Of a stretch of DNA of 41,896 nt, positions 4,710 through 8,893 are shown piece by piece (position 1 is the first letter of the stretch; every line of letters begins with the position of its first letter). The translations under genes and the position numbers were made by a program. Source of the stretch: Erysipelotrichaceae bacterium (GTDB lineage: Bacteria > Bacillota_I > Bacilli_A > Erysipelotrichales > Erysipelotrichaceae); contig JAFUCG010000002.1 in assembly GCA_017459795.1 (NCBI GenBank), forward strand, positions 1-41,896, written 5' to 3'. The notes under the pieces are model-generated. The model ran no database searches, was not told the DNA's origin, and was given only the letters and a program-made list of their open reading frames with translations.

Positions 4710-4964
4710 ATGACTATTGTTAAGCAGATGGACATCAGAGACAACATAAAAAAATATTTTGATATGGCTCACGATGGAGAACCAATAATCGTCCCAAGAA
4801 AGAACGATAAAAACGTTGTAATAATTTCCGAAAATGATTATAAGGAATTTGAAAAATATAAAAGAAATCAGGAGTATCTGGCAATGCTAAGAAAATCCAT
4901 GCAACAAGCCAAAGAAGGAGGCTTTGTAGAAACAACATTGGAACAATTGGAGTCTTTTGAATGA
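4710..4964 (+). CDS. Antitoxin, Phd/YefM family
   Basis: The 84-residue protein has the Phd/YefM pattern: an N-terminal DNA-binding and dimer part (MDIRDNIKKYFDMAHDGEPIIVPRKNDKNVVIISENDYKEFE) and a charged C-terminal tail (MQQAKEGGFVETTLEQLESFE) that would wrap the toxin. It neutralises the toxin and normally represses its own promoter. A strong ribosome site AAAGGAGG (4694-4701) precedes the ATG, and the palindromic operator overlaps the promoter. Its last codons overlap the toxin start by 4 bases (ATGA), the usual coupling in such pairs. Start, length and partner all agree; the exact subfamily name is not assigned. Confidence 0.9.
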   Translation: MTIVKQMDIRDNIKKYFDMAHDGEPIIVPRKNDKNVVIISENDYKEFEKYKRNQEYLAMLRKSMQQAKEGGFVETTLEQLESFE

Positions 4965-5224
4965 GGAATATTGTTTGGACTCAAATAGCCTGGACTCAGT
5001 ATACTGAGTGGCAGCAAGAAGATAAGAAAATGGTCAAAAGAATAAATGATCTTATCAAGGATATAGGAAGAAACGGTTTACTCAAAGGGATTGGGAAACC
5101 GGAACCTTTAAAAGAAATAAAAGCTTGTAGCAGACGGATTAATGATGAACACAGGTTGGTGTATAATTTCGACGATATGCAGAATCTGATCATCTATGCC
5201 TGCAAGGGTCATTATGAAGATTGA
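4961..5224 (+). CDS. yoeB: Toxin, YoeB/Txe family mRNA interferase
   Basis: This 87-residue RelE-fold toxin belongs to the YoeB/Txe family, which cleaves mRNA in the ribosomal A site. The hallmark residues are present: Glu48 in KPEPL, Arg65 in RRINDEHRLVY and His84 in CKGHY, matching the E46/R65/H83 set of E. coli YoeB. The segment between KPEPLK and SRRI is EIKAC, about two residues shorter than the GDLSGYW loop that is usual there. The gene starts within the antitoxin stop (ATGA), so it is translated from the same message. No mobile element flanks the pair. The activity is predicted from motifs only. Confidence 0.9.
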   Translation: MRNIVWTQIAWTQYTEWQQEDKKMVKRINDLIKDIGRNGLLKGIGKPEPLKEIKACSRRINDEHRLVYNFDDMQNLIIYACKGHYED

Positions 5225-5455: not shown

Positions 5456-6646
5456 TTATTCAATTCCTGTATCAAAATACAGACTGTCAAGTTCAAATAT
5501 GTATTTGTCCAGACATTCTCTGGCCTTATCAATTAATGGCTTGCCATTTTCATAACCGAATCTCTTTATGGTTCTTCTTAAGATACGGGTAAAACCAAGT
5601 ACGGCAGCCTTCTTGCCGATTTCTTCAATTTCCTCTTCACTGCGTCCTTCCAGATACTTGTGCATGAACTTGTTGAAGAACAGTACACTGTCGTCCCAGT
5701 CAAGACCTAAGAAGTCCTTGGCAATGGAATGGTCAGCTGAGTTGAAGCCAATGTAGGCATTGTATACACTGGCCAGTTCGAAGATCGGATGACCTACGCA
5801 TAAGGTATCCATGTCAATGAGTAACACTTCACCGTTCTGCATCATGACGTTTTTAATGTGATAGTCACCATGCAACATGTGGTGTTCTCTAGGAATATCA
5901 TTGACCATCTTATTAAGCTTTTCATACTCTTCTTTTGGCAAATGATCCTTAAGGAAATCAACCCAGCCCAAAGCCGTATCTTTAATGTATGGCATTTCTC
6001 CATCTTTTACCGGGGTGTTGTGGATCTGCTTGGCCAGTTCGACTGCCATGTCAACTATTTCATCCATGGTTTTCTGGCCTGAAATAAGCAGTTCAGCGAA
6101 TGAATCAGCGTTTAACAGTTCAAATACTGAACCATACTGGTCGCCAACTTTTACTACGTCATATGGTATTGCGGTAGGAACGCCAAGGATGAGAGCCTTT
6201 CTGGCCATTTCTCTTTCTCTTTTAATATCATCCAAAGAACTGTACTGGTTATAGACTTTAACGATTGTATCTTCATCATAACGGTAAACACTGCCGTTAG
6301 CTCCCTTGCCAATCAGTTCGCAACCGTCAACTGAGAACTTACGGTAGGCCTTTTCAATGGTCATCATTTCGGCGAAACCGGTCATGTCAAAAATCTCGTA
6401 GATTTCTGTTGGAACATTAATGATCTTGAGATCAGGATATTCCTTTTTCAGTCTCAAAATGATTCTCAAGCCGGCACTTGAAATGTACTTCAGTTCTTCA
6501 GCATCAATAACAAGGTTATCAAACTTTTCGTTACCGAGAGTTTCGTTTATTTCCTTTTCAATGTCAGGTGCGTTTGATGAATCAATGTGACCTTTGAGAA
6601 AAATGGTTGCGGTGTTATCCTTGTTTGTAAAATCTATGTAGTTCAT
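5456..6646 (-). CDS. STAS domain fused to APH-like kinase domain
   Basis: This 396-residue protein joins two domains. Residues 1-100 form a STAS (anti-sigma antagonist) domain; the loop KYISSAGLRIIL aligns with the phosphorylated DSSG motif, so Ser57 is the probable phosphosite. Residues about 108-396 form an aminoglycoside-phosphotransferase-like kinase: Gly-rich GKGANGSVY (113-121), Lys130 in TIVKVY, the catalytic loop HGDYHIKN (259-266, Asp261) and the metal site LIDMD (276-280). The C-terminal 60 residues are helical. It lies 11 bases after the PP2C/GHKL gene on the same strand and is the third gene of the operon. I infer that the STAS phosphorylation state controls the kinase. The kinase substrate is unknown; antibiotic resistance is unlikely in this context. 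Confidence 0.85.
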   Translation of the reverse strand: MNYIDFTNKDNTATIFLKGHIDSSNAPDIEKEINETLGNEKFDNLVIDAEELKYISSAGLRIILRLKKEYPDLKIINVPTEIYEIFDMTGFAEMMTIEKAYRKFSVDGCELIGKGANGSVYRYDEDTIVKVYNQYSSLDDIKREREMARKALILGVPTAIPYDVVKVGDQYGSVFELLNADSFAELLISGQKTMDEIVDMAVELAKQIHNTPVKDGEMPYIKDTALGWVDFLKDHLPKEEYEKLNKMVNDIPREHHMLHGDYHIKNVMMQNGEVLLIDMDTLCVGHPIFELASVYNAYIGFNSADHSIAKDFLGLDWDDSVLFFNKFMHKYLEGRSEEEIEEIGKKAAVLGFTRILRRTIKRFGYENGKPLIDKARECLDKYIFELDSLYFDTGIE

Positions 6647-6657
6647 TTATGCTCTCC

Positions 6658-8514
6658 TCAGTTATTCTTCGTAATTGTCAGAATGTTCTGGCCATCCTTA
6701 TATTCGTAACGCATGTCATCCATGCTCTTCTTTACCATGTAAATACCCAGACCACCGATGCCTCTTTCCTCAGCACTTAGTGTTACATCAGGATCAACGG
6801 CTTCAACAGGGTTAAACGGTATGGCACTGTCCTTGAATACAAGTGAGGTACTTGTACCATCGTTAATTACCGTAACGCTTATCTTTCCTTCGCCGTTCTG
6901 ATAACCGTGCTTGATTATGTTACTGCAGATCTCATCTATTGCCACATCAAACTGCATTCTGGTTCTGGCTAAGGTATTATAACTCTCCAGTTTTTCATTG
7001 ACAAATGCGGTGATTTTACTGATGTTGTCTATTGATGAATCAACAACTATTTCACTTGTCTGTGGTTTCATGCCTGTGAATCTTAAGCCAAGCATTGTTA
7101 TGTCATCAAATTGTTCGGTATTACGCTGATAGATATCCAGGGCTTCCTTGATGTGGATGCAGAGTTCTTTCATTGAATACTCTGAATTCTGTTTGATTAG
7201 TTCCAAAGTCTTGTCCATGCCATAGAGATTTCTGTATTCATCTTCAGCTTCCGTGACACCATCGGTATACAGATAGAGGAAGTCACCCTTATGCAAGGTA
7301 AATTCTTCATCAGGGTATTGAACATCAGGCATGCCGCCTAAAATGAAGTTAGACTTGCACTTGATTGTTTCCGGAATGCCATTATGAACAAGTACTGGTG
7401 GATTATGGCCTGCATTGACGTATTTTACCTTACCGGTACGACAGTTTAGTATGCCCATCCAGGCAGTTACGAATAATCCTGTATCATTACTCTCACATAA
7501 GAGATTATTGACATCCTTGAATACTTCAGATGGCTTTCGGTAGTTCATGGTATGGTTCTTAAGAAGTGTCTTGGCAATGACCATGAACAAGGCCGCAGGA
7601 ATGCTCTTGCCTGAAACATCAGCAATTATGAATGCCAGATGATTTCTGTCGATCATGAAGAAGTCATAGAAATCGCCACCGACCTGCTTGGCAGGAATGT
7701 TCAGGGCATAGAGGTCAAACTCTTCATGATCAGGGAAGGCCGGGAATGTCGTTGGTAACATGCTGTTCTGAATGTCATTTGCCAGAGTCAGTTCAGAATC
7801 AATACGGGCAGACTTCTTGGTTGACTCGTCCTGTTCCTGTACCATTTCACGGCCTCTTTCAGCGATGTTAACGCTGATGACGGCAACAAGTAGGTATATC
7901 AGTAATTTAGGCAGGAAAGAATACAGCAGCGTATTCCTTATCAGCATTTCTGAGGTATAGAGCCCCGTAGCTTTTATGCTTGGACCCAGAAAACGGCTGA
8001 TTACTTCAATTAAGGTTCCTTTTGGGAAGGAAACGATGTTAATGTCTACAAGGCCAACAGTTGTTCCCAATATCGTTGATATCAGAAACAGAACAATGGT
8101 TACTACAGCTGTTGTTATTGTCAGATTTTTGGAAAAATAACGGCTGCTCATTATGACCGGTACAGTCATGAGTAATGAAACCTTGTATGTCAGTAACATG
8201 TCTACTCTGGCAAAGGCAATGGTCAAGCCAAACAGTAACAGATACTTTAACCACCATTTCTTCTGCTTGTAGTGGAAACTTAAGTAGAGTGGGATGGATA
8301 GTTCAATGAGACCCTGCCATACTACCAGGTTCATGTCACTAGGATCGATTGGGAAAACATCGAGGATCATTAAGATCCAGCCGACAACTAATAAAAAAGC
8401 GCATAAAACCATGATCGTGGTAACTAACTTGTTAGCCTCGACCTCGTTATGCCAGAAAACATCATTTTCCCTTACACTGTTTCTTACTCTTTTGAAGAAC
8501 CCGTCCTTTGCCAT
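6658..8514 (-). CDS. Membrane PP2C (SpoIIE/RsbU) phosphatase fused to GHKL (RsbW-like) kinase
   Basis: This 618-residue protein has about six membrane segments in residues 30-220 (for example TTIMVLCAFLLVVGWILMIL from 32 and LLIYLLVAVISV from 204). A short coiled linker leads to a SpoIIE-type PP2C domain (about 240-478) with metal-binding motifs GGDFYD (279-284), ADVSGKS (299-305), YTDG (416-419) and FDDIT (469-473). The C-terminal domain (about 485-618) is an RsbW-type ATPase/kinase with N box DEICSNIIKHG (527-537) and G box GIGGLGIYMVK (585-595). Family knowledge: PP2C removes phosphate from STAS serines while the GHKL domain adds it. Both opposing activities are therefore on one polypeptide, next to two STAS genes. 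The signal sensed by the membrane part is unknown. Confidence 0.9.
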   Translation of the reverse strand: MAKDGFFKRVRNSVRENDVFWHNEVEANKLVTTIMVLCAFLLVVGWILMILDVFPIDPSDMNLVVWQGLIELSIPLYLSFHYKQKKWWLKYLLLFGLTIAFARVDMLLTYKVSLLMTVPVIMSSRYFSKNLTITTAVVTIVLFLISTILGTTVGLVDINIVSFPKGTLIEVISRFLGPSIKATGLYTSEMLIRNTLLYSFLPKLLIYLLVAVISVNIAERGREMVQEQDESTKKSARIDSELTLANDIQNSMLPTTFPAFPDHEEFDLYALNIPAKQVGGDFYDFFMIDRNHLAFIIADVSGKSIPAALFMVIAKTLLKNHTMNYRKPSEVFKDVNNLLCESNDTGLFVTAWMGILNCRTGKVKYVNAGHNPPVLVHNGIPETIKCKSNFILGGMPDVQYPDEEFTLHKGDFLYLYTDGVTEAEDEYRNLYGMDKTLELIKQNSEYSMKELCIHIKEALDIYQRNTEQFDDITMLGLRFTGMKPQTSEIVVDSSIDNISKITAFVNEKLESYNTLARTRMQFDVAIDEICSNIIKHGYQNGEGKISVTVINDGTSTSLVFKDSAIPFNPVEAVDPDVTLSAEERGIGGLGIYMVKKSMDDMRYEYKDGQNILTITKNN

Positions 8515-8516
8515 AA

Positions 8517-8819
8517 CTATTGCTCGATTGTCAGGATATCACTGAATCCAGTAACATCAAAAATTTCCATTATGTAACTGTTAACATTGCGTAGCACTAA
8601 CTTACCGCCTTTAGCGTCCATCAGCTTGTGCAGAGCCAGGATGACTCTGAGTCCGCTGGAAGATGTATATTCCAGTCCACGCATGTCCAGAACGACTTCG
8701 TTAACAGAATCAACAGATTCTCTAACTGCACTGTCAAATTCAGCACTGTTTGATGTATCAAGTCTTCCAGACAGGAAAACTGTCAGTACGTCATTTTCTA
8801 AACTCTTTCTTATCATCAT
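8517..8819 (-). CDS. STAS-domain anti-sigma factor antagonist (RsbV/SpoIIAA-like)
   Basis: This 100-residue single STAS domain is the first gene of the minus-strand operon. LDMRGLEYTSSSGLRVIL carries the conserved SSG loop; Ser54 aligns with the phosphorylated serine of SpoIIAA. The C terminus (NSYIMEIFDVTGFSDILTIEQ) resembles the STAS part of the downstream fusion, where IYEIFDMTGFAEMMTIEK occurs at the same place, so the two STAS domains are probably paralogues. The ATG at 8819 follows AAGGTG by 7 bases; a second ATG follows directly. Its stop lies 2 bases before the next start. No sigma factor is encoded in the window, so its binding partner may be the GHKL domain only. Confidence 0.88.
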   Translation of the reverse strand: MMIRKSLENDVLTVFLSGRLDTSNSAEFDSAVRESVDSVNEVVLDMRGLEYTSSSGLRVILALHKLMDAKGGKLVLRNVNSYIMEIFDVTGFSDILTIEQ

Positions 8820-8863: not shown

Positions 8864-8893
8864 TAATAAAAAAACGATGTTACCACCGTTTTT
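8864..8893 (-). terminator. Terminator of small-multidrug-export-family gene
   Basis: On the minus strand the arms AAAAACGGTG and CATCGTTTTT enclose a GTAA loop (one G-U pair) and run into a T-rich tract. It separates the membrane-protein gene from the STAS operon downstream. Confidence 0.8.

Follow-up and report, generated by a model that had tools for sequence, protein, structure and literature searches.

A three-gene operon of a gut/rumen Erysipelotrichaceae bacterium, located in the 41,896-nucleotide stretch of DNA analysed here (the window), joins a STAS domain to an APH-fold kinase and encodes a GHKL kinase and a PP2C phosphatase beside it. We consider it moderately likely that this membrane-anchored, self-contained module performs non-transcriptional partner switching, with a STAS-gated APH-fold kinase as its direct output. 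Partner switching is known mostly as a route to the release of sigma factors. What appears to be new is a widespread and conserved link between STAS and an APH-fold kinase that comes with a kinase/phosphatase pair of its own; no description of STAS-APH proteins was found in the literature searched (STAS + APH, TIGR02172, SAH + partner switching). The conserved STAS-kinase fusion and the GHKL domain that moves around it would represent a compact system for the control of an enzyme in cis by STAS phosphorylation, and the STAS-APH family points to a signalling or metabolic route that has gone unrecognised in rumen and gut anaerobes.

The original prediction placed a three-gene operon at positions 5456-8819, and the open reading frames and Pfam domains were found there as claimed, the matches of all three proteins exceeding the curated cut-offs. 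The features are as follows:

8517..8819, reverse strand: lone STAS protein (RsbV/SpoIIAA-like), 100 aa; Pfam STAS 2.9e-19; phospho-acceptor position S54
6658..8514, reverse strand: TM-PP2C-GHKL protein, 618 aa; SpoIIE 7.8e-48 and HATPase_c_2 5.5e-19
6647..6657, reverse strand: 11-nt spacer preceding STAS-APH, starting with a ribosome-binding-site-like GGAG stretch (from the sequence)
5456..6646, reverse strand: STAS-APH fusion, 396 aa; STAS 5e-14 and APH 2.4e-15
8870..8893, reverse strand: terminator-like hairpin after the upstream gene (pattern scan, consensus only)

As read, the order is lone STAS, PP2C-GHKL and STAS-APH, with gaps of 2 nt and 11 nt. Because the terminator-like hairpin immediately precedes the lone STAS gene, the trio probably forms a single transcription unit of its own. 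A chance grouping is excluded by the repeated co-occurrence of these genes in dozens of genomes. On the opposite strand, the operon adjoins a YefM-YoeB-type toxin-antitoxin pair (window 4710-5224, forward strand; Pfam).

The presence of both PP2C and GHKL domains in one membrane protein, also claimed previously, was borne out by Pfam matches above cut-off and by the hydrophobic N-terminal stretches. At least four hydrophobic segments are found within aa 25-219 of the first 220 residues, followed by the SpoIIE domain at aa 290-479 and the HATPase_c_2 domain at aa 495-616. The former is a SpoIIE/RsbU-type PP2C with its metal Asp residues kept, and the latter an RsbW/SpoIIAB-like GHKL domain in which the E/N of the N-box are present. 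In homologues, the PP2C Asp residues examined are conserved in 73/73 proteins and the N-box Glu in 111/111 domains. The G1-box Gly of the window GHKL is replaced by Ala, which occurs there in 5/111 domains (the window and four others) and could weaken ATP binding. The host genome encodes a second SpoIIE-type PP2C (G000:C61 45810-46379, L094) without a GHKL domain, the N-terminal membrane region of which resembles 5TMR-LYT by eye.

Both STAS domains carry a serine at the position of the RsbV phosphosite, S56 (PMC11418112). S54 of the lone STAS protein, which was also aligned to SpoIIAA, corresponds to RsbV residue 56 in the alignment to the RsbV chain and lies two residues ahead of a conserved Gly; S57 of STAS-APH occupies the equivalent place, again two residues ahead of the Gly. 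These are the two serines named in the original prediction, and a serine at this position is invariant in homologues (78/78 lone STAS, 126/126 STAS-APH). Because some of these loci were retrieved by a motif that includes the serine, the fair count is that of the 48 family members obtained by whole-protein search without the motif, where S57 is present in 48/48 and S56 in 46/48.

STAS domains are also familiar as docking modules, as in SulP and MlaB (PMC7367683). The APH might then be constitutive, its STAS domain serving as a tag for localisation or scaffolding that brings it to the membrane-bound PP2C-GHKL protein, and the partner protein does have hydrophobic segments. A passive tag, however, would not need an invariant phospho-acceptor serine, and we regard this explanation as very improbable.

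The similar C termini of the two window STAS domains (EIFDVTGF and EIFDMTGF) had been taken as a sign of internal duplication, an idea that has to be abandoned. This likeness is a general STAS feature, present in SpoIIAA and RsbV too, and in the STAS tree the STAS-APH domains fall on one side of a branch (support 98), with the lone STAS and STAS-HAD domains on the other. Given the separate deep clades and the family-wide C-terminal likeness, the sequences identify the two domains as old paralogues, with no local duplication. A search of the host genome (212-contig assembly, 95.8% complete) returned no STAS domain beyond these two.

The fusion of the second STAS domain to an APH-type kinase with catalytic motifs was likewise recovered, both as Pfam matches and as motif residues. 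In STAS-APH, the STAS domain (aa 1-100) is followed by an APH-fold kinase (aa 105-390) with a G-loop IGKGANG, K130, E144, HGDYHIKN at 259-266 and D278, and the Lys, HGD, Asn and Asp are invariant in 126/126 homologues. The confident AlphaFold model of the window protein (pLDDT 94.5) was used for fold comparison, in which the kinase part is closest to choline/ethanolamine kinase (3dxq, Z 17.3) and APH(4)-Ia (Z 16.8); PsiK, APH(3'), LicA and others follow within about 1-2 Z units, and methylthioribose kinase was also matched. Fold, G-loop, Lys, HGDxHxxN and Asp place the protein in the APH kinase superfamily (PF01636). It shares the fold and the HGDxHxxN/D motifs with APH/choline-kinase fold enzymes (PF01636; the TIGR02172 Fibrobacter family), but, unlike them, it carries an N-terminal STAS domain and it scores under the TIGR02172 cut-off (103.6 bits vs the curated 228.2). 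Concerning the substrate, many small-molecule kinases tie at Z 15-17 in the fold search, which singles out no compound; a small metabolite is probable.

The alternative that STAS-APH is a protein kinase, with STAS gating allowing the phosphorylation of a protein, which might belong to the module or be an HD or transporter partner, has to be weighed at this point. The G-loop GANG and the alpha-C Glu look protein-kinase-like, and the fold matches include the lanthipeptide kinase LxmK, but these matches are mostly small-molecule kinases (choline kinase, APH(4), APH(3'), PsiK, LicA, methylthioribose kinase), and the HGDxHxxN motif is typical of the small-molecule group. A common fold does not in itself show the substrate. 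A protein substrate is thus distinctly unlikely, and a small-molecule kinase is the output preferred here.

A search of 245 genomes of the window's own family yielded several dozen full-length STAS-APH homologues. The protein is present in 5/8 of the other same-genus genomes listed, is sparse in the class at large (19/395 genomes matched at 1e-20) and recurs in Lachnospiraceae, Oscillospiraceae, Christensenellaceae and others, with at least 575 related stretches. The 73 non-duplicate loci used to count gene neighbourhoods had flanks of 5 kb or more on both sides, and a GHKL domain was scored when fused to STAS-APH or located within 5 kb on the same strand. As the loci were picked by similarity to the window protein, the following proportions describe its close relatives and not STAS-APH proteins in general: GHKL is fused or adjacent to STAS-APH in 62/73, lone STAS is found in 48/73 and PP2C in 41/73. 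For comparison, such a neighbour would be expected at random in an estimated ~1% of loci if a 2-Mb genome carries about two copies of each domain. The gene trio is thus conserved in other genomes, as the original prediction demanded of it. None of STAS, PP2C and GHKL is nearby in 10/73 loci, which counts against the preferred reading, although the two partner-less genomes examined each contain strong HATPase_c_2 matches elsewhere. Divergent STAS-APH copies of about 40-47% identity are also found without partner genes nearby (L075, L076, L084, L087 and others).

Within this conserved neighbourhood the placement of GHKL varies. It may be fused to the C-terminal end of PP2C, the arrangement of the window, stand as a separate gene of ~140 aa, or form the C terminus of STAS-APH itself, the last case accounting for 30/126 homologues. 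On the STAS-APH tree (a single quick tree, some branches of which are not firm), the fewest GHKL state changes needed are 18, vs a least possible 2. In the model of one fused homologue, L124 (pLDDT 86.7), the C-terminal domain is closest to RsbW of the RsbV-RsbW complex (6m37; Z 17.6, rmsd 2.2 A, 110 residues) and also matches SpoIIAB in the model fold search. GHKL has been repeatedly re-fused to different partners while staying in the operon, and the kinase is therefore tied to STAS-APH. Nothing else speaks as strongly for joint action of kinase, phosphatase and STAS-APH as this re-fusion.

The mobility of GHKL also bears on ordinary sigma control, in which the domain would be the anti-sigma factor of a distant sigma, freed by the lone STAS protein, STAS-APH acting as another antagonist. 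The components of the classical cascade all have homologues in the trio, and the genome offers candidate targets: its six sigma-region-2 matches were assigned by eye to RpoD, an RpoD-like neighbour and four ECF-like genes. On the other hand, no sigma gene was found within or close to the operon or anywhere else on the window contig, in line with what had been claimed, and of about 128 homologous loci only 3 have sigma genes nearby, with no recurrent one among them, so a sigma factor as a local target was rejected. GHKL has fused repeatedly with STAS-APH or PP2C, and it was not found with a sigma factor. No SigB/SigF-like sigma was recognised by eye among the six region-2 matches, and no free RsbW/SpoIIAB-like protein was above cut-off in the host genome, an assembly of 212 contigs and 95.8% completeness in which an absence is no proof. 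Both of its strong HATPase_c_2 domains belong to fusions with membrane proteins, one being that of the window and the other, on a different contig, being joined to a MATE transporter; the weaker matches sit in longer frames of 435-489 aa. Altogether, we judge sigma control to be unlikely. A role in anti-phage defence was also considered and rejected, as PADLOC gave no match for the three window proteins or for the HD protein of relatives described below.

The reading preferred here, a partner switch with an APH-fold kinase as output, can be described as a sequence of putative steps. The membrane region at the N terminus of the PP2C-GHKL protein would sense a signal and set the balance between GHKL and PP2C. 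GHKL would phosphorylate the STAS serines, S54 of the lone STAS protein and S57 of STAS-APH, and PP2C would strip the phosphates from them. The phosphorylation state of S57, together with GHKL binding to STAS, may then gate the joined APH-fold kinase, which would phosphorylate a metabolite, probably a small one. The lone STAS protein would compete for the same GHKL and in this way set how much STAS-APH is held or released. As for the original proposal of a partner switch that ends in a kinase rather than in transcription, the operon, the two STAS clients and the conserved gene set stand, and APH as the non-transcriptional output is likely.

Several features of this scheme have precedents. The SpoIIAA-SpoIIAB-SpoIIE and RsbV-RsbW-RsbU systems of B. 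subtilis have in common with the window a STAS client with the serine at the same position, a GHKL kinase and a SpoIIE-type PP2C phosphatase; the window differs from them in that kinase and phosphatase share one membrane protein, no sigma factor was found nearby and the second STAS is fused to APH. Enzyme control by partner switching, a precedent that the original prediction had not named, is already known from SiaC-SiaD, HsbA-HsbD and BgrV-BgrR. SiaABC, for instance, controls the enzyme SiaD (PMC8457831), and in SiaABCD, HsbA-HsbD and BgrV-BgrR the control is exerted through a STAS or STAS-like protein, as proposed here (PMC8457831, PMC7647112). In these systems the STAS-like protein acts in trans on a diguanylate cyclase, whereas the window STAS is in cis with the kinase. 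STAS fused to an output domain, likewise not named there, is known from CapS, where CapK phosphorylates Ser54 of the STAS domain and alters the fused output domain (PMC13373217). Both CapK-CapS and the window have a STAS-output fusion and a GHKL kinase encoded with it, but the CapS output is a winged-helix repressor, activated by DNA damage, and that of the window is APH by Pfam and not a wHTH DNA-binding domain, with PP2C and a lone STAS in addition. A STAS domain fused to a glycosyltransferase, all4160, is cited in a further paper (PMC8256260).

Relatives of the operon contain additional modules. An HD_4 protein of ~190 aa is often encoded just upstream of STAS-APH (40/126 neighbourhoods, incomplete ones included; 20/73 full-flank loci). 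Among solved structures it is nearest to small alarmone hydrolase-like proteins (7qoe, 9e-25; 4yf1, 7e-24), followed by SpoT/RelA and MESH1. It shares with MESH1/SAH HD hydrolases the domain and the intact HP, LLHDTVED and DKLxN motifs, all eight motif positions examined being invariant in the 40 proteins; unlike these known enzymes, the putative hydrolase is embedded in a partner-switch operon. The HD protein is absent from the window operon, and the host genome encodes elsewhere a 747-aa HD protein of RelA/SpoT size. An apparent HD fusion to STAS-APH in L165 was rejected, as the overlap proved to be two reading frames. Three loci (L044, L050, L051; 3/73) contain a fusion of STAS to HAD, a Cof-type phosphatase, upstream of PP2C, and thus, alongside STAS-APH, STAS is attached here to more than one enzyme. 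A tentative extension, which we consider rather unlikely as a whole, is a widespread signalling system of anaerobic gut Bacillota in which the STAS-gated APH kinase would make a phosphorylated signal molecule, possibly of nucleotide type. Its removal would fall to the MESH1-like HD hydrolase or the STAS-HAD phosphatase that many relatives encode next to the kinase. If true, partner switching would be wired to second-messenger metabolism.

The MATE-family transporter fused to an RsbW-like HATPase_c_2 domain in the window genome (domain at G000:C154 8792-9139; L078 8780-10561, reverse strand) has counterparts near STAS-APH in eleven other distinct loci (L070, L103, L107, L113, L118, L125, L148, L149, L153, L154, L166), the assignment being confirmed by Pfam for L078 and made by size, N-terminal sequence and HATPase match for the rest. 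These transporters may form a further arm of this network. Finally, a 470-aa protein with a PTS lactose/cellobiose IIB match and a weak ROK match stands beside the module in L045, L052, L054, L055, L057, L058, L059, L065 and others (6/73 full-flank loci), hinting at sugar signals.
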